64,000 nt of DNA from Pigmentiphaga kullae (GTDB lineage: Bacteria > Pseudomonadota > Gammaproteobacteria > Burkholderiales > Burkholderiaceae_B). Positions 34,900 through 56,000 of the stretch are shown here, one piece after another. The position numbers were made by a program, and so were the translations under genes. Below the pieces are notes generated by a model, which saw only the letters and a program-made list of their open reading frames with translations, ran no database searches and was not told where the DNA came from. The stretch's first letter is position 1, and every line of letters starts with the position of its first letter. Location: NCBI RefSeq assembly GCF_004216695.1, contig NZ_SGXC01000001.1, forward strand, positions 372,001-436,000, written 5' to 3'.

Positions 34900-35006
34900 T
34901 TATTAATGCTTGCGGGAGCTCCCGCACAAACTCATTTTCCCCGCGGTGCACTTTGTGCACGCGCCGCAGAAGCGCTTTGACTTCGCCGTTGGCGCGCCAA
35001 TAGTAT
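34900..35006. promoter_or_regulatory. Divergent promoters around LysR-type box 1
   Basis: The box GTGCAC-TTT-GTGCAC lies at 34946-34960 and contains the T-N11-A motif of LysR regulators. To the right: 16 bases, TTGACT (34977-34982), 18 bases, TAGTAT (35001-35006). To the left, on the minus strand: 16 bases, TTGTGC (34924-34929), 18 bases, TAATAA (34900-34905). The box centre is near -60 for each start, the classic activator position. Confidence 0.78.
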
Positions 35007-35075
35007 GAAAAAACGATATGCGCCCAAACGCCGATTCCATGCGGGTTTCGGGGCGGTCGGACCAACGGTTCAAAG

Positions 35076-36209
35076 ATGGGGAGAGACGTGGGAAGAGCAA
35101 AGGCGGCGATCATCGGCGTGGGCGGTTCGAGCATCGAGCGGCGCTCGGACCGGAGCATCGTGGCGTTCGCGCTCGATGCCGCCATGGCGGCCCTGGCCGA
35201 CGCCGGCATCGACCGCGAACAGATCGACGGCTACATCGGATCGCCCAAGGCCTCCCATGCCGCCGCCCTGCACGTGGACGGCGCCGACGAGATCTCCGCC
35301 CGGCTGCTGGCCGGCAGGCTGGGACTCGAGAACCTGTCCGTCGCCATCGACCTGAACAGCGCGTTTCCCACCGAGATGGTGACGACCGCCGGACATCTTC
35401 TGCACAGCGGGGCATGCGACTACCTGCTTGCCGTGCGGGCCCTGTGCAACCTGCCGGGCGTCCGATACGGCGAGGTCAAGTCGCGCGAGGCCCATGGCGA
35501 GGAGCAGTTCACCGCCCCCTTCGGCTACCACACCGGCGGCGCCAGGTTCGCCACGCGGCTCCAGGCGTACTTCAGCGCCTCGGGCGCCACGCGGCGCGAC
35601 CTGTACGAACTGGTCGCGCTGATGCGACGCAACGCCTCGCGCAATCCCCATGCCATCTGGCGCGACAAGAGCGAGATCGCGCTGGACGATTACCTGCGGT
35701 CGCCGCTGATCGCCGAACCGCTCTGCATGCTCGATTGCGACATGCCGGTCAGCGGCGCGGTCGCCTTCGTCATGACGCGGCCGGAGCTGGCCGCGGCTTC
35801 CAGGCAGCCGCCCGTCTATGTGGCCGGCTCGGCGAACTGGCTGACCGCCGACGAGATCTTCGAGCGCTCGGGCCGTGACCGGACCGACATCGATCTATGC
35901 CAGATCTACGACGGCTTCTCCTTCCTGGTCTACGAATGGCTGGAGCGGCTCGGGTGGTGTCCGCCGCATGCGGCCTGGCGCTACGTGCGCGACGGCGAGT
36001 GCGAGATCGGCGGCGAGCTGCCCGTGAACACCTTCGGCGGCGCGCTGGGCGAAGGCCGGCTGCACGGCGCCGGCCACGTCCGCGAAGCGGTGCTGCAACT
36101 GCGGGGCCAGGCCGGTGACCGCCAGGTCCCCGGCGCGGCCGACTGCCTGGTCCAGGTCGGACCGTTCGATTACTCCTCCTTGCTGGTGCTCAGCAATGAC
36201 CCGGCGTGA
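35076..36209 (+). CDS. Thiolase-like protein (Ltp/SCP-x type, acetyl-CoA acetyltransferase family)
   Basis: The 377-residue thiolase-fold protein begins AAIIGVGGSS and has NTFGGALGEGRLHGAGHVREA, the motif of the family with the catalytic His. The nucleophilic cysteine expected after the first half-domain is absent: the segment reads IDLNSAFPTEM. QIYDGFSFL holds a Tyr like that of Ltp2-type retro-aldolases, which work with a DUF35 partner. Such a DUF35 protein exists at 57079. A GTG at 35088 is an alternative start. First gene of the rightward operon. Confidence 0.8.
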   Translation: MGRDVGRAKAAIIGVGGSSIERRSDRSIVAFALDAAMAALADAGIDREQIDGYIGSPKASHAAALHVDGADEISARLLAGRLGLENLSVAIDLNSAFPTEMVTTAGHLLHSGACDYLLAVRALCNLPGVRYGEVKSREAHGEEQFTAPFGYHTGGARFATRLQAYFSASGATRRDLYELVALMRRNASRNPHAIWRDKSEIALDDYLRSPLIAEPLCMLDCDMPVSGAVAFVMTRPELAAASRQPPVYVAGSANWLTADEIFERSGRDRTDIDLCQIYDGFSFLVYEWLERLGWCPPHAAWRYVRDGECEIGGELPVNTFGGALGEGRLHGAGHVREAVLQLRGQAGDRQVPGAADCLVQVGPFDYSSLLVLSNDPA

Positions 36210-36237
36210 ATACGATGTTTCCTGATGAGGTGGTTTG

Positions 36238-37554
36238 ATGTTGTCACATGCAGATAACGAGTTGCTCGTACGGGTCGGTGCCGGAACCGCCATGGGCAAT
36301 CTCATGCGGTTGTACTGGCTGCCGTTCTTCCTGTCGAAGGATCTCGCGGCCGACGGCGCGCCCAAGCGCGTCCGGCTCATGGGCGAGGACCTGGTCGCAT
36401 TCCGCGACTCCGACGGGCAGATCGGCCTGGTCGACGTCGCGTGTGCGCACCGCCGCGCGCCGTTGGCCTATGCGCGCAACGAGGATGGCGGCCTGCGTTG
36501 CGTGTACCACGGCTGGAAGTTCGATCGCACCGGGCAATGCACGGACATGCCCGCCGAACCGGAAGAAAGCCGCTACAAGGAGCGGGTGCGGATCAAGTCC
36601 TACACCTGCCGGGAGCGCAACGGGGTGGTGTGGGCCTACATGGGCCCCGAGCAGCAGAATCCGCCCCCGCTGCCGAACGTCGAGTGGAATCTCGTCGCCC
36701 CCGAACAGGTCCACCTTTCGCTGCGGGTGCAGGAGTGCAACTGGCTGCAAGGACTGGAAGGCGACATCGATTCCGCGCACGCCAGCTTCCTGCACGGCCG
36801 GGTCGATGCGGAAGGCCGCATGAAGCGCCTGCTCTACGTGCGGGACCGCCGTCCCAAGTTCGAGGTCGTCAGGCAGGATTACGGTATCAGCATCGCCGCG
36901 CGCCGCGGCCTGGAAGACAAGGCGTACTGGCGCGTGACCCAGTTGCTCGAACCCTTCTATACCCTGACGCCGCCGCAGCCCGTCTTTCCCGAGCTGACCG
37001 GCCACGCCTGGGTCCCCATCGATGACGAGCATACGCTCGTGCTGATGTTCAGCTACCACCCCGACGAGCCGCTGTACGAGAAAACCAGGAAACTGTTCGA
37101 GGAAGGCTACAACGGCCGCGAGACGGGCCACCCCAGCCGCGATGCCTTCCGGCACGACAATCCCGCCGATCCCTATTTCGGATACTGGACCCGGTTCAAT
37201 CGCGAATCCGATTTTCTCTTCAAGCACGAAGACCAGGTCCGTACCTGGTTCTCGGGGCTGCCGGGGCTGTGGGTGCAGGACACCGGCTGCCAGGCCGGGC
37301 TGGGGCCGATCGCCGACCGGTCCGCGGAAAAACTGGGGGCGAGCGATGCCGGCATCGTGGCCGCGCGCCGCCACCTGCTGGACCTGGCCAAACGGTACCG
37401 GGACGAGGGGCACGCGCCCGCCACCGTGGCGAATCCGGATCTGCTCATGATGCGGGCCGTCTCGCTGACGATCGATCCGCAACTCGAATGGGCGGAGGCA
37501 GGCAAGGAACCCATGACCGCCCGGCTGGGCAAGGGGTTCGGGTACAAGCCATGA
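36238..37554 (+). CDS. Rieske [2Fe-2S] ring-hydroxylating oxygenase, phthalate 4,5-dioxygenase type
   Basis: The 438-residue protein has the Rieske cluster ligands Cys69-x-His71 and Cys88-x2-His91 (CAHRR, CVYHGWKFD) and the mononuclear iron region EGDIDSAHASFLHG at about residue 178. Length and pattern fit the phthalate dioxygenase family of class IA oxygenases. It needs a reductase, none of which is encoded nearby. The ATG overlaps nothing upstream, but the stop overlaps the next ATG (ATGA), so it is coupled to the CoA-transferase. Confidence 0.87.
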   Translation: MLSHADNELLVRVGAGTAMGNLMRLYWLPFFLSKDLAADGAPKRVRLMGEDLVAFRDSDGQIGLVDVACAHRRAPLAYARNEDGGLRCVYHGWKFDRTGQCTDMPAEPEESRYKERVRIKSYTCRERNGVVWAYMGPEQQNPPPLPNVEWNLVAPEQVHLSLRVQECNWLQGLEGDIDSAHASFLHGRVDAEGRMKRLLYVRDRRPKFEVVRQDYGISIAARRGLEDKAYWRVTQLLEPFYTLTPPQPVFPELTGHAWVPIDDEHTLVLMFSYHPDEPLYEKTRKLFEEGYNGRETGHPSRDAFRHDNPADPYFGYWTRFNRESDFLFKHEDQVRTWFSGLPGLWVQDTGCQAGLGPIADRSAEKLGASDAGIVAARRHLLDLAKRYRDEGHAPATVANPDLLMMRAVSLTIDPQLEWAEAGKEPMTARLGKGFGYKP

Positions 37555-38822
37555 GCAGCGACGTCAACGAATACAAGGGAAGCGCCGACGGCGGTGCCCT
37601 GGCGGGCGTCCGGGTGCTGGAGCTGAGCGCCGGCGCGGCGGCGGTCACGGGCCGCATGCTGGCGGACCTGGGGGCGGAGCTCATCAAGGTCGAACCGCCG
37701 GGAGGCGAGGCCGCGCGCACCGCCGAACCGCTGGTCAGCTTGCCCAACGGCGAACGCATCAACCCGTTCTGGCTCGCATTCAACGTGAACAAGCGCAGCC
37801 TGTGCCTCGATCTCGATACGGAGGCGGGGCGCGAAGACTGGATACGGGTGGCGCGGACGGCCGACATCGTGGTCACCGACCACCAGCGCCTGTCCATGGC
37901 CGAGAACGATGCGCTGGCAACGCTGGCCCGGGCCGCGAACCCCGGCCTGGTCTGGACGGAGATCTGGCCGTTCGGCCGAGGCGGTGCCTACGAGAACCAT
38001 CCGGCCGGCGACCTGGTGATCCAGGCCCTGGGCGGACACCTTTGCCTCAACGGCGACCTCGACCGGCCGCCGGTCCGCATCGGCCTGCCGGTGTCCGTGC
38101 TGCATGGCGGATCGGAGGCGGCGGGCGCGGCGCTGATGGCCTATTACCATCGCCTGCGCACCGGCGTCGGCCAACGCGTGGACATCTCCATGCAGGAGTG
38201 CATCACGTGGACGCTGCTCAACACCACCATGATCTGGCAGTTGCTGGGCATCAATGAAACCCGCGGCGGCGCGGTGCGCAAGGAAAGGGCCAACAATTTC
38301 TACACCCGCCTCGTCTGGGAATGCGCCGACGGCTACATCACCATCGCGCCGGTCGGCGGCGGCTTCGGCGTGGTGCGAGAACGGTCCTATGCGGCGCTGG
38401 TGGCCTGGATGGCCGAGGAAGGCGTGGCCGATGAACTCCTCACTTCGCGGGACTGGAACGGCAGGGACGCGGCGTCCATCAGCCAGGAGGACTACGACCG
38501 GGTGGCGGTGATCATCGGCGATTTCATCCGCACCAAGACCAAGCGGCAGTTGATGGACAGGGCAGTCGGAAACCAGATCCTGCTGGCGCCCATCAACGGC
38601 GTGAAAGACGTGCTCGACAACGCCCACCTGCGCGAACGGGGGTTGTACGCGTCGCTGCGGGACGACACGCGCGGCACGACGCTGGACTACCCGGCGACGT
38701 GGGCCAACCTGCGCGCCACCCCGCTGGTTCCGTTGCGGCCCGCCCCCGGCCCGGGCGAATTCGCCCTGGCCGATATCGATGCCGACGGCGCCCGAGGGGC
38801 AACCATCAAGGAGCAAGCATGA
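37551..38822 (+). CDS. CaiB/BaiF family CoA-transferase
   Basis: The 423-residue class III CoA-transferase begins GVRVLELSAGAAAVTGRMLADLGAELIKVE (split at its middle) and has NKRSLCLDLDTEAGR and the DLVIQALGGHLCLNG catalytic-site stretch with Asp. It overlaps its neighbours on both sides by ATGA, as expected for coupled subunits. Together with the next CaiB gene it may form a heteromeric transferase such as succinyl-CoA:benzylsuccinate or cholate-type transferases; homomers are also known. The acyl donor is unknown. Confidence 0.82.
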   Translation: MSSDVNEYKGSADGGALAGVRVLELSAGAAAVTGRMLADLGAELIKVEPPGGEAARTAEPLVSLPNGERINPFWLAFNVNKRSLCLDLDTEAGREDWIRVARTADIVVTDHQRLSMAENDALATLARAANPGLVWTEIWPFGRGGAYENHPAGDLVIQALGGHLCLNGDLDRPPVRIGLPVSVLHGGSEAAGAALMAYYHRLRTGVGQRVDISMQECITWTLLNTTMIWQLLGINETRGGAVRKERANNFYTRLVWECADGYITIAPVGGGFGVVRERSYAALVAWMAEEGVADELLTSRDWNGRDAASISQEDYDRVAVIIGDFIRTKTKRQLMDRAVGNQILLAPINGVKDVLDNAHLRERGLYASLRDDTRGTTLDYPATWANLRATPLVPLRPAPGPGEFALADIDADGARGATIKEQA

Positions 38823-40033
38823 GCCGCGGTTCCATCTTCGACGGCATCAAGGTCGCCGACTTCACCTGGGCTGCGGCGGGTCCGATCATCACCAAGCAGC
38901 TCGCCGACAACGGCGCGACCGTGATCAAGATCGAATCGACTCGCCATCCCGACAGCGTGCGCCTGGGCGGGCCGTTCAAGGACGGGGTGCGCGGCATCAA
39001 CCGCAGCGGTTTCTTCGCCGACTTCAACAGTTCGAAGCTCGGCATCGCCATCGACATGAACCATGCGCGCGCCGCGGAAGTCGTCCTGCCCCTGGTCAAG
39101 TGGGCGGACGTGGTCGCCGACAGCTTCCGGCCCCGGGTCATGGACAAATGGGGATTCGGCTACCGGCGGCTGAGCGAGGTCAATCCCAGCGTCATCATGG
39201 TCAGCTCGTCGCTATACGGCGACACGGGGCCGTGGAGCACTCACCCCGGTTTCGGCGCGCAGGGACAGGCCATCGCCGGCTTCCACGGGCTGACGGGCTG
39301 GCCCGACCGCCCGCCCGCGGTCCCCAAGGGGGCCTATACGGATTCCGTCTCGCCCCGCTTCGGCATGACCGCGCTGGCGGCCGCGCTCATCCACCGGGAG
39401 CGCACGGGACAGGGCCAGCATATCGAACTCGCGCAGGTCGATACCGGCGTCATGTTCCTGTCCGCGGAAATCGTCAAGCTGCAGGCGGGCGGAGGCGAGA
39501 CGGTTCGAGCCGGCAATGCCGACCCGCGTGCGTTGCTGCATGCGGTGCTGCCGTGCCAGGGCGAGGACCGCTGGATCGCCGTCGAAGTCTGGACGCATGA
39601 GCAGTGGCATGCCTGCATGGACATGCTGGCGTCCCGCGGAAAGCCCTCCGCCGTACTGGCGGACCCGGCGGCGGCCAGGCACGCGCCCGAGGCCGTCGAA
39701 CGCGCGGTCGGCGAGCTGACCGCGCATTGGGATGCCTTCGAACTCATGGGCGCCCTGCGCCGCGCCGGCGTGCCGGCCGGGGCATGCCTGCGCGGCGGCG
39801 ACCTGCTGGCGGATCCCGTGCTGCGGGAACGCGGCCATTTCTGGCCGCTTGCGCATCCCGAGATGGGGACGCTGGATTACAACGGTCCGGCCTATCGGTT
39901 CGAGCACACTCCATCGCACCTTACCCGCGCCGCGCCGTGCCTGGGCGCCGACACCGACGACGTGCTGGGCCAGGTGCTGGGTTTCGCCTCGGCCAAGATC
40001 GGCGAATTGCGCGACTGCGGCGTGCTGGCATGA
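38819..40033 (+). CDS. CaiB/BaiF family CoA-transferase, second subunit or paralog
   Basis: This 404-residue protein is a paralog of the preceding one: GIKVADFTWAAAGPIITKQLADNGATVIKIES (split) and MNHARAAEVVLPLVKWADVV. Its N-terminal half resembles BbsF/CaiB subunits of aromatic pathways. Adjacent pairs of this family often work as a heterodimer that activates an aromatic or alicyclic acid as CoA thioester. Start and stop overlap ATGA with the gene before it. It lies 21 bases before the VOC gene. Confidence 0.82.
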   Translation: MSRGSIFDGIKVADFTWAAAGPIITKQLADNGATVIKIESTRHPDSVRLGGPFKDGVRGINRSGFFADFNSSKLGIAIDMNHARAAEVVLPLVKWADVVADSFRPRVMDKWGFGYRRLSEVNPSVIMVSSSLYGDTGPWSTHPGFGAQGQAIAGFHGLTGWPDRPPAVPKGAYTDSVSPRFGMTALAAALIHRERTGQGQHIELAQVDTGVMFLSAEIVKLQAGGGETVRAGNADPRALLHAVLPCQGEDRWIAVEVWTHEQWHACMDMLASRGKPSAVLADPAAARHAPEAVERAVGELTAHWDAFELMGALRRAGVPAGACLRGGDLLADPVLRERGHFWPLAHPEMGTLDYNGPAYRFEHTPSHLTRAAPCLGADTDDVLGQVLGFASAKIGELRDCGVLA

Positions 40034-40054
40034 AGATGGACCGGAGATAGATTC

Positions 40055-41275
40055 ATGGATGAAGGGCTTTTCAGCGTCGGCGGCGTGCTCATGCCCCGGC
40101 CATTCAAGGTCAGGCGGCTCGGGCATTTCGGCATCAATGTTCCGGATGTCGATGCCGCGCTCGATTTCTACCGCCGCCTGCTCGGCTACAAGATCTCCGA
40201 CCCGATCGATTTCTCGTCGCGGCTGCCCCCGCAGGAGCGCGACCGGCATGGTTCCACTGTCGGCTATTTCCTCCGGCATGGCACCGAACATCACTCCTTC
40301 GTGATATTTCCCAGCCGCTTCCTGCATGCGACCAACCCTCACTATCAACATCATCCGGAACTCACGACCAATCAGTTCACCTGGCAGGTGGGCAGCCTCA
40401 AGGAAGTGGTGGACGGACTCCAATGGTTCGAGGCGCACGACAAGAAGATCGTGCGTTCCGGCCGCGACGTGCCGGGCTCCAATTGGCACTTCTACGCGCC
40501 GGATCCGGACGGCCATGTGAACGAGCTTTTCTATGGCATCGAGCAGATCGGCTGGAGCGGGCATGCCAAGCCTTCGCAGGTACACCGGCTTCGGCATGAA
40601 AAACCGCCGCAACTGCCTTTCCGCTCCGAGCAGGCCGAAGTCGATGCGGCGCTGGCCGATTCCCTGCCGCTGGATGCCGGACAACGGGGCGTGGACGCCG
40701 CCGCCGAGGTGCACGACGTGGACGGCATCCTGCTGGGCCGGCCGTTCAAGGTCATTCGCATCGGCCCCATACGCATCTTCGTACAGGACATGGAACGGTC
40801 GCTGCGCTTCTATCGCGACGACCTGGGACTGGCGGTCACCGAGGAGATCGACTATCTCGGCCACCGATGCGTGTTCCTGCGCGCCAATACCGAACACCAC
40901 TCGCTGGCGCTCTACCCCTTGGCGCTGCGGTCGGAACTGGGCCTCGCGGCAGGCAGCACCCTGATGTCCTTCGGCATGCAACTCGGCAGCTACGCCCAGC
41001 TCAGGAACGCCATGGCCTTCCTGCGCGGCCAGGGCGTGGAGGTCTTCACGCTGCCGCCGGCATTGTTTCCCGGCATGGACTACTGCGCCTTCGCACGGGA
41101 TCCGGCCGGCAACGCCATCCAGCTTTATTACCGGATGGACCAGATCGGCTGGGACGGCCGGCCGCAGCCCCGCGGTGCTGCCGGGCCCATGCCCGACATC
41201 GCCGATTGGCCCGAGGCCGTGCCTGCCACGAGCGACGTTTACCAGGGCGAAACATTCCTGGGTCCGATGAATTGA
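40055..41275 (+). CDS. Two-domain VOC (extradiol dioxygenase-like) protein
   Basis: The 406-residue protein has two full VOC domains. The first (about residues 20-175) begins RRLGHFGINVPDVDAALDFY and ends VNELFYG, keeping the first His and the final Glu. The second (about 225-370) begins IRIGPIRIFVQDMERSLRFY and ends AIQLYYR, where the first His is Pro-Ile and the Glu is Gln. The layout matches type I extradiol dioxygenases, but there the N-terminal domain is the inactive one; here it is reversed. It may cleave a catechol or act as a hydratase/isomerase. Confidence 0.72.
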   Translation: MDEGLFSVGGVLMPRPFKVRRLGHFGINVPDVDAALDFYRRLLGYKISDPIDFSSRLPPQERDRHGSTVGYFLRHGTEHHSFVIFPSRFLHATNPHYQHHPELTTNQFTWQVGSLKEVVDGLQWFEAHDKKIVRSGRDVPGSNWHFYAPDPDGHVNELFYGIEQIGWSGHAKPSQVHRLRHEKPPQLPFRSEQAEVDAALADSLPLDAGQRGVDAAAEVHDVDGILLGRPFKVIRIGPIRIFVQDMERSLRFYRDDLGLAVTEEIDYLGHRCVFLRANTEHHSLALYPLALRSELGLAAGSTLMSFGMQLGSYAQLRNAMAFLRGQGVEVFTLPPALFPGMDYCAFARDPAGNAIQLYYRMDQIGWDGRPQPRGAAGPMPDIADWPEAVPATSDVYQGETFLGPMN

Positions 41276-41286
41276 CGGGAAACGAC

Positions 41287-42234
41287 ATGGATTACGACTA
41301 CAGGCTGGTGAGTTTCGTCGACCGGGGCGGCGCCGCCCGCGCCGGCGTGGTGGTAGGTGGGCAGGTCTACGACGCGGCGGACCTGCTGCAGTCGTCGGGG
41401 CTGCCGGATGCGCCCGCGACGATGGCGGGACTGCTCGATGACTGGCCCGGCATGGACGAGCGGGTCCTGGCGGCGGTCAATTCGTCGGCGCTGCCGACGA
41501 CCGCCTCGTGGCCGCTCGAATCCGTCGCGCTGCTGGCGCCGGTTCCCGCACCCGGGGCCATTTATTGCGCGGGAGTCAACTACCGATGCCATCGGGAAGA
41601 AATGGCCAGGGTGCACAACCGGCCGCCGGAACCGGACCTGCGTGAATCCGGCTTCGAGCCCTGGCATTTCCTCGTGCCTCCGCGGGCAAGTCTGGCGGGC
41701 CCCGACGCCATCGTCGAGCGCCCGGCGGGATGCGAGAAACTGGACTGGGAGGCCGAACTGGCCCTGGTCATCGGCCGCCAGGTCCGCCACGTAACGCCGG
41801 ACGAGGCACTATCGGCCGTGGCCGGCTACGCCATCGCCAACGACCTGTCCGCGCGCGACCTGAGCGTACGGCCCCAGCAAAACGAGAAATCTCCCTTCCG
41901 GGCCGACTGGCTGGCGCACAAGGGCTTCGAGGGCTCGCTGCCCCTGGGACCCTGGCTCACGCCGGCGCGGTTCGCCGGAGATCCGCAGAAGCTGGGTATC
42001 CGGCTATGGGTCAACGACGCGCTCAAGCAGGATTCGGACACCAGCCAGATGATCTACTCGGCCGCCGAGCAGATCGCGCACCTTTCCCGGCTGCGCACGC
42101 TCTATCCCGGCGATGTGATCCTGACCGGGACGCCCGCGGGCGTGGGAAGCGCACGCGGCGAATTCCTGCAGCCCGGCGACCTGGTTCGCGTCGAGATAGA
42201 CGGGTTGGGCCAACTGAGGACGCGCATCGTCTGA
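41287..42234 (+). CDS. Fumarylacetoacetate hydrolase (FAH) family protein
   Basis: The 315-residue protein has IYCAGVNYRCHREEMA, the metal-site ligands in LDWEAELALVIGRQ, and LYPGDVILTGTPAGVG. It differs clearly from the FAH protein at 31211, so the two serve different steps or are distant paralogs. Members hydrolyse C-C bonds of acylpyruvates or hydrate/decarboxylate dienoates after ring cleavage. It is 11 bases after the VOC gene, as expected for successive meta-cleavage steps. Confidence 0.82.
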   Translation: MDYDYRLVSFVDRGGAARAGVVVGGQVYDAADLLQSSGLPDAPATMAGLLDDWPGMDERVLAAVNSSALPTTASWPLESVALLAPVPAPGAIYCAGVNYRCHREEMARVHNRPPEPDLRESGFEPWHFLVPPRASLAGPDAIVERPAGCEKLDWEAELALVIGRQVRHVTPDEALSAVAGYAIANDLSARDLSVRPQQNEKSPFRADWLAHKGFEGSLPLGPWLTPARFAGDPQKLGIRLWVNDALKQDSDTSQMIYSAAEQIAHLSRLRTLYPGDVILTGTPAGVGSARGEFLQPGDLVRVEIDGLGQLRTRIV

Positions 42235-42251
42235 TGGGGACGGAGCCGGAT

Positions 42252-43049
42252 ATGACGGAGCTATCCATGCATGAGCGCACTTTTCCTTCCTCGCACGTCG
42301 CGCTAGTGGTCGGGGGCCGATCGCCGATCGGCCTGGGCATCGCGCGCGAGTTCGCCGCCCGCGGTGCGGGCCGCATCGCCATCGCCGGCCGCAACGAGGC
42401 CCAGGGCCGGACCTGCGTGGACGAACTGGCGCGCAGCCTGCCCCGGGCGCGCTTCGAGTTCATCGCCGTCGACATTGCCGACGATGCGAGCCGGCACGCG
42501 ATGTTCGGACGAATAGGCGAGCAGTTCGGCGGCCTGGACAGCTACGTGCATTGCGTACCCCCGGGCGCGGTAAGCGGTGCATTGGCCGACGCCGGCCTGG
42601 ATCGGTTCCGGACCAGCCTGCTGGCCGGGCTCGGCGGCCTGGCGGGGTGCTGCCAGGAGGCTTCGGACCTGCTGCGCGCGCGCGGCGGCGGCAGCATGCT
42701 CGTCTTCGCCTCGGACGCCGGGCGCATCGCATCGCCGCGCAACGCGCTCGTGGCCACGGTGCAGAGCGGTATCATGGCGCTGGTTCGCTCGCTGGCGCTG
42801 GAACTGGCGCGGGACAGGATCCGCGTCAACGGCCTGTCGCCAACCTATGTGCGCGATACGCCGTTGTTCGACCGCCTGATGAGCAACGAGGGTATCGCGC
42901 GGCGCATCGAGAAGGCCGCGCAGCGCGCCGGGCTGGGATTGCCGGCACCGGACGACATCGCGCCCCTGGCCGTTTTCCTGGCCGGCAATGCGGCCTCGAA
43001 AATCACCGGACAGATCATCAGCATCAATGGCGGGTTGAGCGCCGCATGA
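42252..43049 (+). CDS. SDR family protein lacking the catalytic Tyr/Lys pair
   Basis: The 265-residue Rossmann protein has a nucleotide motif VALVVGGRSPIGLGIA and the C-terminal GQIISINGGLS of classical SDRs. The active-site Ser is present (FASDAG), but at the YxxxK position the sequence is Val167-Ala-Thr-Val-Gln171. Such loss is seen in enoyl-ACP reductase-like and non-catalytic SDRs. A GGAG site favours this ATG over an ATG at 42234. It sits between the FAH and LysR genes of the same operon. Confidence 0.78.
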   Translation: MTELSMHERTFPSSHVALVVGGRSPIGLGIAREFAARGAGRIAIAGRNEAQGRTCVDELARSLPRARFEFIAVDIADDASRHAMFGRIGEQFGGLDSYVHCVPPGAVSGALADAGLDRFRTSLLAGLGGLAGCCQEASDLLRARGGGSMLVFASDAGRIASPRNALVATVQSGIMALVRSLALELARDRIRVNGLSPTYVRDTPLFDRLMSNEGIARRIEKAAQRAGLGLPAPDDIAPLAVFLAGNAASKITGQIISINGGLSAA

Positions 43050-43081: not shown

Positions 43082-44056
43082 ATGAAGAAGCAAAGTTCCT
43101 TCGATCTGAATCTGCTGGCCTACCTCGAGGCCCTGATCGAGGAAAGCCACGTATCCCGCGCCGCGCAGCGCGTCAACCTGAGCCAGCCCGCCATGAGCCT
43201 GGCGCTCAAGCGGCTGCGGACCATGTTCAGCGATCCCATCCTGGTCCAGACGGCGCAGGGCATGCGACCCACCCTGCGGGCGCAGCGGCTGCTCGGCCAG
43301 GTGCAGGATGTCCTGCACCAGACCGAGCGGCTGGTCGCCCCCCAGCAGGAATTCGACAGTGCGAAGACGACCCAGACCTTCGTCCTGATGGCGTCCAATT
43401 TTGTCGCCTCGCTGTTCCTGGCCCCGCTGGCCGCCCACTTCGCCGAAGCCGCGCCCAATGCCCTGCTGTCGATCCAGCAGGCGCCGCCCTACCGAGTCAA
43501 GGAATGGTTCGAGAACTCGGCTGTCGACCTGGGGGCCTCGTACGCACAGGACTCATTGCCGGGCTCCCTGCATCGCCGCACGGTCTTCGAGGACAGGCTG
43601 GTCTGCATCGCCCGGCGCGGCCACCCCGGCTTCCAGAAGCCGATCGACCTGGAGTCCTTCTGTGCTATCCCCTCGGTCAAGGTGGACAAGCCGCATGCCT
43701 TGCGCATGACGCAGACCGTGGAACGCGTGCTGGCGACCACGGGCCACGGCATGCGGGTGGGCACCCTGGTCTCCGAGTTCCTGCTAGTGCCGGAGGTGGT
43801 CGCTTCCAGCAACATGATCGCCATCGCTCCCGAAAGCCTGTTGCGCCGGTACGCCGGCGCCGACATGCTGCAGTATTCGCCTCTGCCCTTCGACATGCCG
43901 CCCTTGCAGCTTTCTCTGGTGTGGCACCCGCATACCCACAACGAGCCTTCGCACCAGTGGCTGCGCACCTTCGTCAGGAAAGCCATTATCAACGGCCGGA
44001 CCTGTCCCGGCGAATGCGACACGCATCCGCCCGAGCCCGCCATCGTCATCCACTAG
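43082..44056 (+). CDS. LysR family transcriptional regulator of the catabolic cluster
   Basis: The 324-residue protein has an N-terminal HTH (FDLNLLAYLEALIEE, SHVSRAAQRVNLSQPAMSLAL) and a LysR substrate-binding domain from about residue 95, of the LeuO/NodD-like group. It is the last gene of the operon that begins at the thiolase, downstream of box 1, so it probably regulates its own expression. The GTGCAC-N3-GTGCAC boxes carry the LysR T-N11-A pattern and are the obvious targets. An ATG at 43046 overlapping the SDR stop is an alternative start. Confidence 0.87.
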   Translation: MKKQSSFDLNLLAYLEALIEESHVSRAAQRVNLSQPAMSLALKRLRTMFSDPILVQTAQGMRPTLRAQRLLGQVQDVLHQTERLVAPQQEFDSAKTTQTFVLMASNFVASLFLAPLAAHFAEAAPNALLSIQQAPPYRVKEWFENSAVDLGASYAQDSLPGSLHRRTVFEDRLVCIARRGHPGFQKPIDLESFCAIPSVKVDKPHALRMTQTVERVLATTGHGMRVGTLVSEFLLVPEVVASSNMIAIAPESLLRRYAGADMLQYSPLPFDMPPLQLSLVWHPHTHNEPSHQWLRTFVRKAIINGRTCPGECDTHPPEPAIVIH

Positions 44057-44080: not shown

Positions 44081-45052
44081 TTACTCGGCCGAAAATCCTC
44101 CGGCCTTGATCATCGGTTCCCAGATCGACATTTCCTCGCCCATGACCACACCCAGTTCGGCCGGACCGACATGGGCGGGCACATAGCCGTAGGCCAGGTA
44201 GCGCCGGCCGATCTCGGGATCCGACAACGCCGTCCGGAACGCGTCGCTCAGGCGCGAGACGATGGCGGGCGGTGTTTCCCTGGGCGCGACGATGCCGTAC
44301 CAGACGGGCAGATCGAAACCCGGGATGAGCGAGGCGACAGGCGGAACGCCGGGCAGGGCCGGCGACGGGTCCTTGGTGGACACCGCGATGGCGTGGAGCT
44401 TGCCCGCTGCGACCGCCTGGATCGCTGGTTCGGAGAAACTCGTGAACGTGAAGTGGATGTCCCCGGCCAGCAGCGCCGACAACGACTGGGCATTGGTCTT
44501 GTAGGGCACGTGCGTGAACTTGACGCCCGCCTGCTGGGCCAGCCGTTCCGTCAGCAGGTGGCCCTGGCTGCCTATGCCGTTGCTGGCATAGGTGAGCCGG
44601 TCCGGATGTTTCCGGGCCGCGGCCAGCAGGCCATCCAGCGTGCGCAACTCCGGATCGGGGCGGGTGAAGATCACCATCGGGCCGATGGCCACGCGGCAGA
44701 CCGGCGCCAGGTCCTTGATGAGGTCGATGCGGCTGGTCTTCTGTATCAATGGCGTCGGCACCATGCTGCTGATCAGCAGGCCGATCGTATAGCCGTCGGC
44801 GGGCGCGTTCTGTACGGCCTGCGCGGTGATCATGCCCGCCGCGCCGGGTTTGTAGTCCACGATGACGGGCTGGCCCAGCGTCTTGCGCAGCGAATTCTCG
44901 AGCAGGCGGATAGTGGCGTCCAGCGCACCAGACGGCGCCACCGGCATGACCAGGCGTATCGGCCGCTCCGGGTAGGCCGCGGCGGCGGTGTGGGCGACGG
45001 CGCACAACAGCGCGCCAGCGAGCGTCCTGGCCAGGGTGCCGTATCTCATCAT
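44081..45052 (-). CDS. Bug family substrate-binding protein
   Basis: The 323-residue preprotein has a signal peptide and the mature start AYPERPIRLVMPVAPSGALD, with the DG and GAAGMI motifs of Bug receptors. It is the distal gene of porin-Bug-Bug and about 26 bases after the other Bug gene; the two differ clearly. It probably binds the pathway substrate or a related carboxylate. Converges with the LysR gene. Confidence 0.9.
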   Translation of the reverse strand: MMRYGTLARTLAGALLCAVAHTAAAAYPERPIRLVMPVAPSGALDATIRLLENSLRKTLGQPVIVDYKPGAAGMITAQAVQNAPADGYTIGLLISSMVPTPLIQKTSRIDLIKDLAPVCRVAIGPMVIFTRPDPELRTLDGLLAAARKHPDRLTYASNGIGSQGHLLTERLAQQAGVKFTHVPYKTNAQSLSALLAGDIHFTFTSFSEPAIQAVAAGKLHAIAVSTKDPSPALPGVPPVASLIPGFDLPVWYGIVAPRETPPAIVSRLSDAFRTALSDPEIGRRYLAYGYVPAHVGPAELGVVMGEEMSIWEPMIKAGGFSAE

Positions 45053-45079
45053 GTCTCTCCGTATGGGTGTCCTGCGATC

Positions 45080-46057
45080 CTAGTTGCCACGCCCCGCCTT
45101 CCGCGCGACGTCGCTCCAGCGGTTGATCTCGCTGGCCAGCAACTGGCCGAACTCCGCCGGCGTGGACGCGGTGGGCTGGTAGCCCAGGGTGCGTATCCGC
45201 TGCGCGAACGTTTCGGTGCCGGCGAACCGGGCCGCCTCGCGCGCCAGCAGGTCGCGGACGTCGTCCGGCATTCCCTTGGGGCCGAGCAGACCGGCCCACG
45301 CCGTGACGTCGAAGCCCGGCGCCACGGTTTCGGATACCGTGGGAATGTCCGGGTGGGTGGCGAGCCGGGCGCGGGACGTAATGCCCAGTACCCGCACGCG
45401 TCCCGTGTCCACGAAGGGCGTCAGGGGATTAATCGAACTGAAGGTCATCTGAACTTCATTGGCGGCCAGCGCCGCCAGCGTCGGCGATTCACCGTTGAAG
45501 GGAATGGGGAACAGATCTGCCTTGGCGCTCAGCTTGAACAGTTCGATCGCCAGCCCCTGCCCCCCGGACAGGCTGCCATAGTTGATCTTGCCGCGGTGTT
45601 CACGCGTATAGGCGACGAACTCGGGCAGCGTCTTGACCGGCAGGGCCGCGCTGACGGCCACCCAGTACGGCGCCGTCATGAGCTGCGAAATCGGCGCCAG
45701 GTCCCGCATCAGGTCCAGTTCGGAATCTTTCTGGTCGATCTGGAACGTGGTCAGGCCCGGCGAGCCGAGCAGCAGCGTATGGCCGTCCGGCTTGGCGCGA
45801 GCCACCGACAGCGCGCCGATGACGCCGCCCGCGCCGGCCTTGTTCTCGACGATCACCGGTTGCTTGAGCGATTGCGAGAGATAGTCGGCAAGGAGACGGC
45901 CGACGTTGTCCATGGTGCCGCCCGGCGGATAGGGAACGATGATGCGGACGCGGCGGTTGGGATAATCGGCTGCCTGCGCGGCCGGCAACGAGAGCATGCC
46001 GGCCAATGCACAGCAGGCCAGCATTCGTCCGAGCTTCAGTAGCGTGGCAAGACCCAT
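45080..46057 (-). CDS. Bug family substrate-binding protein
   Basis: The 325-residue preprotein has a signal peptide ending LPAAQA and the mature start DYPNRRVRIIVPYPPGGTMDN. GAGGVIGALSVA and the DL/DLAPIS segments are typical. It follows the porin gene and probably receives solutes that pass it. Which TctAB pair it uses is unclear; only one exists in the window, at 57552-59524. Confidence 0.9.
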   Translation of the reverse strand: MGLATLLKLGRMLACCALAGMLSLPAAQAADYPNRRVRIIVPYPPGGTMDNVGRLLADYLSQSLKQPVIVENKAGAGGVIGALSVARAKPDGHTLLLGSPGLTTFQIDQKDSELDLMRDLAPISQLMTAPYWVAVSAALPVKTLPEFVAYTREHRGKINYGSLSGGQGLAIELFKLSAKADLFPIPFNGESPTLAALAANEVQMTFSSINPLTPFVDTGRVRVLGITSRARLATHPDIPTVSETVAPGFDVTAWAGLLGPKGMPDDVRDLLAREAARFAGTETFAQRIRTLGYQPTASTPAEFGQLLASEINRWSDVARKAGRGN

Positions 46058-46114
46058 GGATGTCTCCTTGCGTGGCGCGGCGGAACATGAGGCTGCCGCG
46101 CCGTTGAGATGTGA

Positions 46115-47164
46115 CTAGAAGGCGTGGCGCATGCCCACCGCGATCTGGCGCACGCCTATGTCCCGGTTCAATGTGTGGTTGCGGAAATCGATATCGTCGT
46201 AGAGCACATACAGGCGCGTGCGCTTGGACAGATAGTAGGCATAGGCGAGTGACACCCCGCCGATCTTGGACTCCGTGGCGCGCTGGTAGCTTGCCAGGAT
46301 GGTACCGGGGCCGACAGGCACCGAGACGCCGATCGAATACGTCTGGTCCTTGGTATGGCCGGTGGCGACATAACCCTTGGCCCGGGTATCGCCCGTCATC
46401 GCACCGACGCCGGGATCCGAGTTCAGATTGCGCGCGCGCCCATAGCCGGCATGCAGCTTGGCGACACCGAAGTCGTAGGACGCGCCGAGGATCATGTTGC
46501 TGGTGTCCCGCTTGCCGGTCGGAGCCTGGGCCTGGTCATAGGTCAGCACGGCGCTCAAGGGGCCCTCCTCGTAGCGGATGCCCGACGTGATCACCCGATA
46601 GTTGTTGCCGCTGCCCGGCACTTCGGCGCCGCTCTCGGCGAAGCTGTATCCGATGCCGCCCTGGAATCCACCGAAGCGCGGCGTAGTGTAGTAGATGGCG
46701 TTGCTCAGGCGGCTGCCCGCGCCGGTATCGTCGTTGGCGTAGTTGAACGTGCTCTTGGCGCTGGCGTTCGACCACGTCTGGCCGAACGGCGACACGACCT
46801 GCGGCGTCCAGTCGCCGCCGAAATTCACCTGGCGGCCCAGGCGGACCTCACCGAAGCCGCCGCTCAACCCGACATAGGCCCAGCGCTGGAACAAGGCGCC
46901 GGTATTGGTGCCCTGGTCGATGTTCAACTGGCTTTCCAGGCGGAAATTCGCCTTCAGGCCGTTGCCGAGGTCTTCCTGGCCCCGGAGCCCGAAGGTCGAG
47001 ACCGAGGACATGCCGCTGCCTATGCCGTTGGTGGTTCCCTTGCCGTCCACTTTCTCGCTCAGGAATCCCGCATCGGCGCTGCCGTATATCGTGACGCCGC
47101 TCTGGGCGTGGGCCGCGCCGGATGCGCCCGCAAGCAGCGCCGCGGCTATCAAGGTCTTTCTCAT
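46115..47164 (-). CDS. Outer-membrane porin (Gram-negative porin, Omp_4 type)
   Basis: The 349-residue preprotein has signal peptide MRKTLIAAALLAGASGAAHA and the mature start QSGVTIYGSADAGF, typical of betaproteobacterial general porins. It has alternating beta strands and ends in Phe (VGMRHAF), the outer-membrane assembly signal. It is the first gene of porin-Bug-Bug with its own promoter at LysR box 2, so it is likely the substrate's entry channel. The ATG was placed 12 codons after the longest frame start. Confidence 0.92.
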   Translation of the reverse strand: MRKTLIAAALLAGASGAAHAQSGVTIYGSADAGFLSEKVDGKGTTNGIGSGMSSVSTFGLRGQEDLGNGLKANFRLESQLNIDQGTNTGALFQRWAYVGLSGGFGEVRLGRQVNFGGDWTPQVVSPFGQTWSNASAKSTFNYANDDTGAGSRLSNAIYYTTPRFGGFQGGIGYSFAESGAEVPGSGNNYRVITSGIRYEEGPLSAVLTYDQAQAPTGKRDTSNMILGASYDFGVAKLHAGYGRARNLNSDPGVGAMTGDTRAKGYVATGHTKDQTYSIGVSVPVGPGTILASYQRATESKIGGVSLAYAYYLSKRTRLYVLYDDIDFRNHTLNRDIGVRQIAVGMRHAF

Positions 47165-47261
47165 TTTCCCGTGTCTCCTCTCGCGCAGGTCCTGCGGCAT
47201 GCAGGCGTGCGCTTATCGATGTCATGATGGTGGCGCCACCGGCATTGCTGGTGGCGGGGCC

Positions 47262-47322
47262 ATCCTATGAGGGGCATTGGAGGCAGGCAAAGATATTTGT
47301 TCGTTCAGTGCACTTCGTGCAC
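47262..47322 (-). promoter_or_regulatory. Porin-operon promoter with LysR-type box 2
   Basis: The box GTGCAC-TTC-GTGCAC (47308-47322) lies upstream of the porin. Read on the minus strand, 40 bases separate it from TAGGAT (47262-47267). A -35 TTGCCT (47285-47290) gives a 17-base spacer; TTTGCC one base over gives the same 16/18 layout as at boxes 1 and 3. The -10 is about 98 bases before the porin ATG. Confidence 0.74.
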
Positions 47323-49190: not shown

Positions 49191-49277
49191 GTCGTCTCCC
49201 GTTGGTAGGTTCTTTCTGTTGGCCGCATAGTGGATCGCGGCGATTTCGTGGTCCATATGCCCGGTCCAATACGCACT

Positions 49278-49322
49278 ATTTGCCCTGCAAATGGCATTCC
49301 TCCGACATGTGCGCCGTATCCT
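49278..49322 (+). promoter_or_regulatory. Divergent promoter with palindrome ATTTGC-CCT-GCAAAT
   Basis: The perfect palindrome ATTTGCCCTGCAAAT (49278-49292) lies 24 bases before TATCCT (49317-49322), a possible -10 for the ALDH operon, with no good -35. The same layout is found at 61276-61320. IclR binding is inferred. Confidence 0.55.
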
Positions 49323-49351: not shown

Positions 49352-50773
49352 ATGAAAGCCGAGGCGTATACCCACACGATCAATGGCACGGGCGAATCCT
49401 CGCCGGAACGGATCGGCGTCATCGATCCCAGCCGCGGGAGCGTGTTCGCGCAATGCCCCAGCGCGTCGCAAGAACAATTGGCTCGTGCCGTCGAGGCAGC
49501 ACGAGCGTCGTCCGGAAACTGGCAGCGGCTGGGTTTCGACGGCCGTCGTGTCTACCTGGAGAAATTCGCGGCGGCCCTGCGCGACAGCATCGAAACGCTG
49601 ACGCCGATGCTGACGCAGGAGCAGGGCAAGCCGCTCGACCAATCGCGCGCCGAAATCCTGCGCGCCGCGGAATCGACCCCCCGGCTGTGCGGCCTGACCG
49701 TCGAAGACGAGGTCCTGAATGACACGCCGACCGAACGGGTCGAGCTGCGCCACCGCCCGCTCGGGGTCGTCGGCGTCATCTCCCCCTGGAACGCGCCGAT
49801 CGGGCTTGCCGTGCTGCGCATGGCGCAGGCCCTGTACGCGGGCAACACCGTCGTCGCCAAGCCTTCGCCCTACACGCCGCTGACCACGCTGAAAGTGGGC
49901 GAGATCGCGCGCGGCATCTTCCCCGCCGGCACGGTCAACGTCGTGGCGGGCGGCGACGATCTGGGCCGCTGGATGACAGAACATCCGGGCATAGACAAAA
50001 TCTCGTTCACCGGTTCGGTGCGCACGGGCAAGCGCGTCATGGCCAGCGCTGCCGCCAGCCTGAAACGCGTCACGCTGGAGCTGGGCGGCAACGATCCGGC
50101 CATCGTCCTGCCCGACGTGGATCTAAAGCAGACCGCCCACCAGATCTTCTGGACGGCATTCCGCAACAGTGGGCAGATCTGCATGGCGATCAAGCGCCTG
50201 TTCGTACACGAGGAAATCTACGAACCGATGATCGAGGAACTGGCGGCCATCGCGCGCGGCGCCAAGGTGGGCGACGGCACCGAACCCGGTGTCGACTTCG
50301 GGCCGCTGCAGAACAGGATGCAGTTCGACATCGTCTCGTCGCTGCTGGCCGATACGCGCGGGCTGCCGGGCGTGCGCATCGCCACCGGCGGCGCGCCGCT
50401 GGATCGTCCGGGCTATTTCGTGCCGCCCACCATCGTGGCCGATATCGCCGACGACACCCGGCTGGTGCGCGAAGAGCCCTTCGGCCCGGTGCTGCCGGTG
50501 TTGAAGTTCTCGGACATCGACGATGCCATCGCGCGCGCCAACGATACCCGCTATGGCCTGGGCGCATCCGTCTGGAGCAAGGACCTCGACACGGCCCGCG
50601 CCATCGCCGATAGGCTGGAGGCCGGCACCACGTGGATCAACTGCCATCTGGTCAGCGACGTCCACACGCCTTTCGGCGGCTGCAAGGAATCCGGCCTGGG
50701 GCGCGCCAACTCCGTCTTCGGCATCAAGGAAGACATGGAGATGAACGTCCTGCGCATCCGCAAGGCGGCCTGA
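49352..50773 (+). CDS. NAD(P)-dependent aldehyde dehydrogenase
   Basis: The 473-residue protein has catalytic Glu243 (LELGGNDPA) and Cys277 (SGQICMAIK), and FTGSVRTGKRV near residue 222 for cofactor binding. The ALDH family is certain but the substrate is not; benzaldehyde- or vanillin-like aldehydes are possible in this context. It is followed after 26 bases by a GMC oxidoreductase, consistent with alcohol to aldehyde to acid. First gene of an ALDH-GMC-Rieske operon. Confidence 0.88.
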   Translation: MKAEAYTHTINGTGESSPERIGVIDPSRGSVFAQCPSASQEQLARAVEAARASSGNWQRLGFDGRRVYLEKFAAALRDSIETLTPMLTQEQGKPLDQSRAEILRAAESTPRLCGLTVEDEVLNDTPTERVELRHRPLGVVGVISPWNAPIGLAVLRMAQALYAGNTVVAKPSPYTPLTTLKVGEIARGIFPAGTVNVVAGGDDLGRWMTEHPGIDKISFTGSVRTGKRVMASAAASLKRVTLELGGNDPAIVLPDVDLKQTAHQIFWTAFRNSGQICMAIKRLFVHEEIYEPMIEELAAIARGAKVGDGTEPGVDFGPLQNRMQFDIVSSLLADTRGLPGVRIATGGAPLDRPGYFVPPTIVADIADDTRLVREEPFGPVLPVLKFSDIDDAIARANDTRYGLGASVWSKDLDTARAIADRLEAGTTWINCHLVSDVHTPFGGCKESGLGRANSVFGIKEDMEMNVLRIRKAA

Positions 50774-52392: not shown

Positions 52393-52409
52393 ACGACAAG
52401 GAGTCCACG

Positions 52410-53447: not shown

Positions 53448-53500
53448 CTCGCCAGGCGGGGATGTCCAGTCCTGTGCCGGCATTCCCCGCCCCGTGGCCG

Positions 53501-55225
53501 TCAACGCCGCGTGCGCGCGTGCATGGCCGCGAGATAGCCGAACACCAGCGCCGGACCGAGCGTCGTGCCCGGGCCGGGATACGCGCCTCCCATGATGGAA
53601 CCCATGTCGTTGCCGCATGCGTAGAGGCCGTCGATCGGCCGGTCTTGCGCATCCAGCACGCGGGCATGGGAATCGGTGGCCAGCCCGGCGCTACAGGCGA
53701 TCTCGGCGGGCCAGACAGCCAGCGCGCAGAAGGGGCCTGTCTGGATCGGCGCCAGGCACGGGTTGGGGCCGTGCGCGGGATCGCCGTTGAATCGGTTCAG
53801 GGCGGTCGTTCCCTTGCCGAAGTCGTCGTCGCGGCCGGCGTCGGCCTGGACGTTGTAGCGTCGCACCGTAGCGAGCAGGTCCGCGGCGGGGATGTCCAGC
53901 GCGGCAGCCAGTTCGTCCAGCGTGTCGGCGCACGTCAGGTAGCCGGCTGACACATGCGGGGCCAGATCCGTCGTTCCAGGATGTATGCAGCCCAGGCCGT
54001 ACTTGCGCACGAACCGGCTCTCGCAGACCAGGTAGGCCGGGATGGCCGGGCGGGTGCGGTCGGCCGCGAACATGGCCAGCCCGAAGTCATGGTAGGACGC
54101 GGCCTCGTTGACGAAGCGCCTGCCGGTCTGGTCGACCGCGATCAGGCCAGGCTTGGCCCGGTCCAGCGAGAGGTGCGGAAACAGGCCGCCGGCCGGCTGG
54201 TGCCGGGTGACGGACACCGGCGTCCAGAACGCGCCGGACCCATATCGCTGCGTGTCTATCCTCGCTCCCGCCCGCAGGCCGGCCGAGATTCCCGCCCCCT
54301 GGTTGTCGGGACTGGCCAGCGATCGCGCCGGCACGGGATCGGGCATGTACAGCGCGCGCATCGCCGCATCGTGCGCATAGCCGCCAGTGGCCAGCACGAC
54401 ACCGCGGCGCGCCTTGATCCGGCGCCGCACGCCCCGTGTTTCCACGATTGCGCCTTCGACCTGGCCGTCCCGGAGAACCAGGTCCACCAGACCGGTTTGC
54501 AGGCATATCGGCACCTGGCGGCGGCGCAGGCTGTAATAGAGGCGCCCCACCAACGCGTTGCCCATGACCAGCCGCGTACCGCGCGGATAGCCGCGGACCC
54601 GGTCGAGCACGTACCTGGTTGCCAACCGGGCGGCATGGAAGAAGTTGGACGGCGAGCGAAAACGTTCCACCAGGGGCGGAATGTCGGCCTTGCCCACCAT
54701 CATGCCGCCCAGCACCATGAATTCCGGAATGGGCGGACGCACGTTCCGGAAGGCGCGGCCAAGCAGGCGTCCATCGAAGCTCTCCGGAATCACCGCCCGG
54801 CCGGCACCTCCGGCTCCCGGCAGATCGAGATAGTCCGGATGCATGCCGCACGAGACGAAGCGCACTTCGCTCCTGCTCTCGAGATAATCCAATACCGCGG
54901 GCCCTTCGGCGAGGTAGGTCCGCCGCAGCGCGCGGCCGGGCTCGTCGTCGACCAGCGCATCCAGGTAGACCGCGGCGGCCTCAGCCGTATCCTGATGGCC
55001 TGCCTCGCGGCCATGCCGATTGCCGGGTATCCACAAGGTGCCGGCCGAGGTGGCCGCCGTGCCGCCAACCTGGCTGCTGCGCTCGCACAACGACACTTGC
55101 AGGCCCTCGAGCGCGCCGACCAGGGCGGCTGCCATGCCGCCGGCCCCCGCGCCGATCACCACGAGATCGGTTTCTTCCTCCCACCCGGCGCCCGAGGGGC
55201 CGCATGCCTGCGTCGGATCAGGCAT
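53501..55225 (-). CDS. KstD-like FAD-dependent dehydrogenase
   Basis: The 574-residue flavoprotein has LVVIGAGAGGMAAAL near residue 21, SQVGGTAATSAGTLWIPGN, and near the C terminus YPGPGTTLGPALVFGYLAA, the motif of 3-ketosteroid delta-1-dehydrogenases and fumarate reductase-like flavoproteins. It most probably desaturates a cyclic ketone. It overlaps the CMD gene by eight bases. Converges with the Rieske gene at 53447. Confidence 0.82.
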   Translation of the reverse strand: MPDPTQACGPSGAGWEEETDLVVIGAGAGGMAAALVGALEGLQVSLCERSSQVGGTAATSAGTLWIPGNRHGREAGHQDTAEAAAVYLDALVDDEPGRALRRTYLAEGPAVLDYLESRSEVRFVSCGMHPDYLDLPGAGGAGRAVIPESFDGRLLGRAFRNVRPPIPEFMVLGGMMVGKADIPPLVERFRSPSNFFHAARLATRYVLDRVRGYPRGTRLVMGNALVGRLYYSLRRRQVPICLQTGLVDLVLRDGQVEGAIVETRGVRRRIKARRGVVLATGGYAHDAAMRALYMPDPVPARSLASPDNQGAGISAGLRAGARIDTQRYGSGAFWTPVSVTRHQPAGGLFPHLSLDRAKPGLIAVDQTGRRFVNEAASYHDFGLAMFAADRTRPAIPAYLVCESRFVRKYGLGCIHPGTTDLAPHVSAGYLTCADTLDELAAALDIPAADLLATVRRYNVQADAGRDDDFGKGTTALNRFNGDPAHGPNPCLAPIQTGPFCALAVWPAEIACSAGLATDSHARVLDAQDRPIDGLYACGNDMGSIMGGAYPGPGTTLGPALVFGYLAAMHARTRR

Positions 55226-55826
55226 GCCGTACCGCCAGCCGCGGGAAGTCGCCGTGCAGTTCCGCCGGTTCGACGTTCGCGGTCTTGAGCATCATCGCCA
55301 CCAGCATGTAATAGCCGGCCACGCCGACCAGATCGACCAGCCTGGACTCGCCGAGTTGCCGGCGCGCCGCGTCGAAGGCCGGATCGCCAATCGCGTGCCG
55401 GGCCAGCAGTTCGGACAAGAGATCGTAGACCGCCGCCTCGTCGTCGCGCATCCCGTCCGGGCGCGCGCCATCGGCGACGGCCTGTGCCACGGCGCGCGGC
55501 AATCCTGCCGCGATGGCGCGCGGGCAGTGGATCTCCCATTCGAAGGCGCAATGCCAGTAGCGGGCAATGATGAGAATGGCGAATTCGTTCAACCTGTCGT
55601 CCAGCATCGTTCCCTGCCGGAAATAGTCGCTGACGGGGGCCAGGCGACGCGCGAGCTCCGGCGCCCGCAGAGTGGCGTCGAAGGGGCCGCCCAGGCTGCC
55701 GTCGGCGGTCTCCATGGCCGCGCGCCATCCCTGTCTGTAGAGCTCCACAACCTGCCGCTGGGCGTCGGATCGCTGTGCTGGGGGAACCGGTGGAAAGCGC
55801 AGGGGCGCCGTGTTTGTGTCACTCAT
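55218..55826 (-). CDS. Carboxymuconolactone decarboxylase (CMD/AhpD-like) family protein
   Basis: The 202-residue protein has the CMD core RYWHCAFEWEIH at about residue 92 and GVAGYYMLVAMML near the end. Only one Cys is in that motif, so it is not a CxxC peroxidase-type AhpD. Members act as decarboxylases or in redox roles. It is the first gene of CMD-KstD-like, behind LysR box 3. The frame start was moved 24 codons to the ATG before SDTNTAPLRF. Confidence 0.75.
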   Translation of the reverse strand: MSDTNTAPLRFPPVPPAQRSDAQRQVVELYRQGWRAAMETADGSLGGPFDATLRAPELARRLAPVSDYFRQGTMLDDRLNEFAILIIARYWHCAFEWEIHCPRAIAAGLPRAVAQAVADGARPDGMRDDEAAVYDLLSELLARHAIGDPAFDAARRQLGESRLVDLVGVAGYYMLVAMMLKTANVEPAELHGDFPRLAVRHA

Positions 55827-55893
55827 GGATTTCTCGGATGTTGGTCGGTGGAAAAACACGCGTCGCCGTCGGGCGTGCGCATGCCGGGAGGCC

Positions 55894-56000
55894 AACATAC
55901 CGGCACGACAACGCCCGGTTCAACGCCGGCGTCAAGACCGTGCACAAAGTGCACCGGGCGGCCGCGTGCTTTGACACCGCGAATGACAGGCCCCTAGCAT
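55894..56000. promoter_or_regulatory. Divergent promoters around LysR-type box 3
   Basis: The box GTGCAC-AAA-GTGCAC lies at 55940-55954. To the right: 16 bases, TTGACA (55971-55976), 18 bases, TAGCAT (55995-56000). To the left, on the minus strand: 16 bases, TTGAAC (55918-55923), 18 bases, TATGTT (55894-55899). The layout equals that of box 1. Confidence 0.78.

Follow-up and report, generated by a model that had tools for sequence, protein, structure and literature searches.

Predicted MhpR-type operators and five promoters of one design in a catabolic and uptake gene cluster of Pigmentiphaga kullae

Introduction

The window analysed here, a 64-kb stretch of the Pigmentiphaga kullae genome (contig NZ_SGXC01000001.1, positions 372,001 to 436,000), carries a cluster of catabolic and uptake operons in whose intergenic gaps a 15-bp palindrome, GTGCAC-N3-GTGCAC (hereafter the box), occurs three times. 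We propose, at a probability of roughly 0.8 and on the strength of sequence comparison, that these boxes are operators of a protein of the IclR family that resembles Escherichia coli MhpR and is encoded within the cluster (59581-60402, + strand), and that this protein would act as a class-I activator of genes for uptake and catabolism. A first-pass annotation of the same DNA had described the boxes and the promoters around them and had put forward, as the best candidate regulator, a LysR-family protein encoded at 43082-44056 (+ strand; an in-frame ATG fits the start at 43082). The assignment is moved here from LysR to IclR because the box matches the operator core of MhpR from E. coli, the cluster has an MhpR-like iclR gene of its own, and box and gene are linked across genomes.

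Three boxes and five promoters of one design

Exact copies of the box are found in the window at 34946-34960 (box 1, GTGCACTTTGTGCAC), 47308-47322 (box 2, GTGCACTTCGTGCAC) and 55940-55954 (box 3, GTGCACAAAGTGCAC) and nowhere else. All three are intergenic according to composition-based gene calls and precede catabolic or uptake operons, as the first-pass annotation had it; their linkers read TTT/TTC (or AAA/GAA). Box 1, predicted to be an MhpR-type operator, and box 3 would each be common to two divergent promoters, and box 2 would serve a promoter on its left only. A search of the whole genome (6.22 Mb in 5 contigs) returned five exact boxes against none for a reversed control pattern. When one mismatch is tolerated the count rises to 39 sites, against 36 for the control pattern; the enrichment is therefore confined to exact copies, near misses are background, and no near-miss box is claimed as a further member of the regulon. 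The fourth exact copy in the genome (L004) is flanked by a TctC-like and an IclR-like frame, and the fifth (L005), inside a 509-amino-acid open frame, is put down to chance.

The five gene-facing arms of the three boxes share, exactly, the layout box-N16-(-35)-N18-(-10), with the -10 at 40 bp from the box in every case. To the right of box 1 the predicted promoter is TTGACT-N18-TAGTAT (34977-35006, + strand) and to its left TTGTGC-N18-TAATAA (34900-34929, - strand), the weakest of the five; box 2 is accompanied by TTTGCC-N18-TAGGAT (47262-47291, - strand), and box 3 by TTGACA-N18-TAGCAT on the right (55971-56000, + strand) and TTGAAC-N18-TATGTT on the left (55894-55923, - strand). These include the TAGNAT -10 elements (TAGTAT, TAGGAT, TAGCAT) that the annotation had placed exactly 40 bases from each box, and also the layout that it had seen mirrored at boxes 1 and 3 (TTGTGC-TAATAA, TTGAAC-TATGTT) and counted towards five promoters of one design. 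In a scan for a common spacing over the five arms (spacings 5-39 and 15-19), 16/18 came out best with a score of 39.7, the runner-up, which uses the same -35, reaching 19.8. No dinucleotide shuffle out of 1000, and no set of five arms drawn at random from the window (again 1000), attained the 16/18 score. Each arm ranks among the best 0.21% of all window positions at this spacing; weak elements are the TTTGCC -35 at box 2 and the TAATAA -10 on the minus side of box 1. The sixth arm, on the plus side of box 2, faces only the 3' end of a gene; it presents GGGGTT/CCGCGC, no promoter at 16/18, and scores below 81% of window positions at that spacing.

Five exact sites, five matching arms and an empty sixth thus support an activator-type geometry well and uphold the idea of a single local regulon that the annotation had advanced. 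The arms carry sigma70-like promoters and, if the -10 elements occupy their usual position, the centre of each box would fall near -60, the position of a class-I activator.

The box as the core of the MhpR operator

The annotation had read the T-N11-A present in each box as a mark of LysR regulators. The motif is indeed there, but it carries no information, since the palindrome GTGCAC-N3-GTGCAC itself forces a T at base 2 and an A at base 14, and it cannot point to LysR. The box is, on the other hand, the core of the operator of E. coli MhpR, an IclR-family protein, given as GGTGCACCTGGTGCACA in Table 1 of PMC8222616, the only one of the papers searched that has the string. An NtrC-like site was also considered for the TGCAC halves and, with no search aimed at it, was set aside on the longer spacing of its half-sites.

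The E. coli mhpR-mhpA region carries the box with TATACT 39 bp away, nearly the distance of 40 bp seen here. We take the operator to stand at -58 of that promoter. In E. coli, phenylpropionate compounds stimulate the interaction of MhpR with its operator, and the protein is an inducer-dependent activator (PMC11237407). The two systems further share the regulator family, the GTGCAC-N3-GTGCAC core, a role in aromatic catabolism and an FAD hydroxylase among the targets. They differ in that the fetched E. coli region has one operator, as opposed to three operators and five promoters in the window, in that iclR is a divergent neighbour of its targets there and the last gene of a target operon here, and in the other catabolic genes of the two clusters.

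Repression, or repression together with activation, by the local IclR protein would be in keeping with a family that includes repressors and dual regulators (PMC8222616), but we hold it to be unlikely: the box lies upstream of the -35 without overlapping it, at a fixed distance in five promoters, and the spacing is close to that of the E. coli mhpA promoter, whose regulator is an inducer-dependent activator by its annotation and according to PMC11237407.

Linkage of the box to iclR genes in other genomes

The company that the box keeps elsewhere was assessed in regions extending as far as about 10 kb to either side of regulator genes, several of them shortened by contig ends, and the iclR and lysR loci of the window itself were excluded from the counts. 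Regions of 23 MhpR-like iclR genes (E up to 4.2e-44) were drawn from two partly overlapping sources, 17 from 121 genomes (16 and a paralogue from P. kullae itself) and 6 from 399 genomes of the order; L099, L102, L103, L104 and L106 seemingly represent one orthologous gene of the same genus and are not independent. Of the 23, 12 contain an exact box and 19 contain one when a single mismatch is allowed; among control palindromes TGGCCA occurs in 5/23 and every other in at most one. The regions of all 13 weaker IclR matches (E 2.4e-35 to 2.4e-31) hold no exact box and one with a single mismatch. LysR was represented by the best 21 matches after the query among the matches listed, which lie in 20 regions, and there the box is missing altogether, both as an exact copy (0/20) and at one mismatch (0/20). 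The helix pattern G[LIM]HRTT[VI][KR]R follows the same division, being encoded in 23/23 MhpR-like, 0/13 distant-IclR and 0/20 LysR regions.

The LysR protein of the cluster is accordingly a very unlikely binder of the boxes, and its standing as best candidate in the first-pass annotation is not sustained. Its gene does lie in the cluster and, as the annotation had also said, in the operon headed by box 1, where it is the last gene if gene spacing is a guide; the T-N11-A is formally inside the palindrome, forced as it is; and LysR homologues merely 32-40% identical to the window protein could have sites unlike its own. Against this, IclR homologues of similar identity (35-42%, about equally distant) do have the box, the site does not recur beside LysR homologues and matches a listed operator of another family (PMC8222616, Table 1), and the cluster contains an iclR gene of a kind that the box accompanies elsewhere.

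A second set consisted of the best 80 of 290 loci matching G[LI]HRTTV[KR]R; it was thus selected by the helix, includes many mutually close relatives and, in at least three loci (L157, L158, L183), repeats genomes of the first. The MhpR-like iclR loci come from Pseudomonas, Zobellella, Amphritea, Marinobacterium, Oceanospirillum and others. Of these 80 HRTTV-type loci, 37 hold an exact box (10 of them two or more) and 51 a box with at most one mismatch, the figures for 17 control palindromes being at most 5/80 exact and 26/80 at one mismatch. A box with up to one mismatch stands no more than 250 bp upstream of the iclR match in 48/80; the other 32 have their upstream site at two mismatches (30 loci), three (L226) or five (L148, where a one-mismatch box lies 6.0 kb upstream). 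With up to two mismatches the site is thus found within 250 bp upstream in 78/80 loci; random stretches drawn from these loci give a background of 4% (87 of 2000). Two recurrent variants, both two mismatches from the box, stand upstream of iclR in particular groups: GTCCAC-N3-ATGCAC in Thauera and Zoogloea (L149, L160, L166, L168) and GTGCAT-N3-ATGCAC in Paraburkholderia, Ralstonia, Trinickia and Pandoraea (L191, L205, L209, L213, L216, L217, L219). In the window, too, the palindrome is linked to an HRTTV-type iclR gene, which belongs to the box-3 operon and lies 3.6 kb from that box.

The arms of boxes with at most one mismatch, taken from 48 of the 80 loci, reveal a preferred distance. In the 44 distinct arms directed away from iclR there are 26 instances of TANNNT at 38-41 bp and a single one at 42-69 bp, a peak that suggests a fixed geometry common among MhpR-type sites; the five arms of the window, all at 40 bp, fall within it. 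The MhpR-like loci of Pseudomonas, Zobellella and others thus resemble the window in having a box upstream of an HRTTV-type iclR gene, often with a -10 at 38-41 bp. A locus of the same genus (L093) has a similar plan: its box separates a LigB operon from a Rieske/TctC/ADH/iclR operon and is flanked, 40 bp out in each direction, by TAGGAT and by a weak GATAAA.

The IclR protein and the points that weigh against its proposed role

Membership of the IclR family is confirmed by Pfam (HTH_IclR, 37 bits against a cut-off of 22; IclR_C, 41.7 bits against 24). The protein is 37-38% identical to E. coli MhpR, and its best NCBIfam model, PRK09834.1-3, is also the best for MhpR, which scores 343.9 bits, above the cut-off of 269. 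In the helix-turn-helix the residues H-R-T-T are invariant in 20/20 aligned MhpR-like proteins (that of the window, that of E. coli and 18 from the 23-locus set), the same position being PRPT, PRPT and PKPS in three aligned distant IclR proteins. These residues sit on the recognition helix.

Several observations weigh against the role proposed for this protein. It is merely about 38% identical to MhpR and, at 238.8 bits, does not reach the model cut-off that MhpR clears; on sequence grounds it is MhpR-like and is not assigned as MhpR. The best IclR match is 43% identical, no close orthologue appearing among the best 80 of 290 loci of a scan that was limited by the helix pattern and may omit near records. 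No box stands directly upstream of the window iclR, the nearest being 3.6 kb off at the head of the operon; most of the 80 loci differ in this, the box usually lying directly upstream of iclR. Four of the 23 MhpR-like regions lack a box at up to one mismatch (L108, L112, L113, L114), one of which, L108, has an exact copy 9.7 kb from the gene, just beyond the fetched stretch. As to geometry, TANNNT is also found 17 times at 10-37 bp in the 44 arms pointing away from iclR, 11 of these at one position, and 0/47 distinct iclR-facing arms have it at 30-49 bp, the activator distance; two-way use is unusual in the family, and promoters on both sides of two of three boxes are less usual than the spacing itself. 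In E. coli the mhpR promoter is constitutive (PMC11237407), and autoregulation here would therefore be a difference.

A further point of this kind comes from a paralogue in the same genome (G000:C2:1400555), which is 39% identical to the window IclR, has the same HRTTVKRLLET helix, adjoins an exact box and could bind too. This second MhpR-like iclR gene (G000:C2:1400494-1401307; L004, L099) has its own GTGCACCTGGTGCAC box beside a TctC-like frame, and four regions of the same genus (L102, L103, L104, L106) have the box at the same place. That the paralogue binds the three cluster boxes, in place of the local protein or along with it, is nonetheless very unlikely in our view: it is on a different contig, the linkage across genomes favours the iclR gene nearby, and the linkers differ, being TTT/TTC (or AAA/GAA) in the cluster and CTG (or CAG) at the paralogue.

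Gene content of the cluster

Operon limits are here estimated from gene spacing throughout, and gene families are taken from Pfam and NCBIfam. The putative operon to the left of box 1 (31211-34852, - strand) encodes an FAD aromatic hydroxylase (33212-34852), a CoA-transferase III (32084-33208) and an FAA hydrolase (31211-32056). The best model for the hydroxylase is PRK06126 (617.8 bits, cut-off 445); by NCBIfam it is not a 3-(3-hydroxyphenyl)propionate hydroxylase, the best model so named giving 150.2 bits against a cut-off of 390. The leader of this operon has two AGGAGG stretches (34870-34905, - strand), the first followed by a short ATG-CAA-CGG-CAT-TAA frame, and the predicted transcription start may sit inside that first AGGAGG. 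The operon to the right of box 1 (35076-43049, + strand) encodes a thiolase-like protein, a LigXa-type Rieske oxygenase, two CoA-transferases III, a glyoxalase/extradiol-type dioxygenase, an FAA hydrolase and an SDR, and would end with the LysR gene, here seen as a target and not as the source of the binder.

Box 2 heads an operon (44081-47200, - strand) for an outer-membrane porin and two TctC-type solute-binding proteins; a GCCACC...GGTGGC inverted repeat lies in the predicted 5' leader of the porin gene (47235-47255, - strand). To the left of box 3 (53501-55826, - strand) are genes for a CMD-like protein (55218-55826, under the Pfam cut-off) and a ketosteroid-dehydrogenase-like FAD enzyme (53501-55225), and to its right (56106-59524, + strand) those for TctC, a ChsH2-type OB protein, TctB and TctA, followed by iclR as the presumed last gene. 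We take the OB protein, TctC and TctA to correspond to COG1545, COG3181 and COG3333, respectively. These three groups are tied to aromatic metabolism and transport in IclR regulons, according to PMC8222616.

The pathway probably acts on an aromatic compound. Three O-demethylase-type Rieske enzymes are encoded in the cluster, two of them in central operons that have no box, and they hint at methoxylated aromatics. These central operons form a divergent pair, SDR/Rieske leftward (start near 49200-49256) and ALDH/GMC/Rieske rightward (ALDH at 49353), and their common gap contains no GTGCAC box at up to two mismatches, which does not fit the picture of one regulon. It does contain a speculative second site, the palindrome ATTTGC-N3-GCAAAT (49278-49292), which has no second exact copy in the genome. 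Besides the boxes, it is the one 6-3-6 palindrome in the 13 gaps checked, and a search for a LysR site gave nothing else. It occurs near LysR homologues in 0/20 regions at one mismatch and could be a product of chance. A two-tier circuit, in which IclR would drive five promoters, that of the LysR operon included, and LysR would control the two central operons through this palindrome, is a tentative idea to which we give a small chance. Outside the cluster, a gene for a Fic/DOC-family protein (Pfam Fic) lies at 26645-27025.

Proposed mechanism and significance

If the MhpR-like IclR protein is the regulator, it would bind a compound of the pathway, whereupon a dimer or tetramer would occupy the 15-bp palindrome, whose centre would lie about 60 bp upstream of each transcription start and just upstream of the -35, as expected of class-I activation, and the bound protein would recruit sigma70 RNA polymerase. 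The symmetry of the operator would allow boxes 1 and 3 to serve two divergent promoters each; box 2 would serve one. The regulon would take in the hydroxylase, CoA-transferases, Rieske oxygenase, ring cleavage, FAA hydrolases, porin and tripartite uptake system, together with the regulator itself, by way of the box-3 operon, and the LysR gene as a downstream target.

A regulator and a site of this kind are already known, and the two-way use of the operators is the less common feature. The regulon is reassigned from a regulator family that is probably wrong to one open to testing, and an aromatic pathway with its uptake genes gains a likely regulator and site. For the family at large, the comparison suggests a rule by which an IclR protein with an HRTTV[K/R]R helix is paired with a GTGCAC-N3-GTGCAC-like site just upstream of its gene, as in all but two of the 80 loci when two mismatches are allowed, and this rule could help to assign sites to many unstudied IclR genes.

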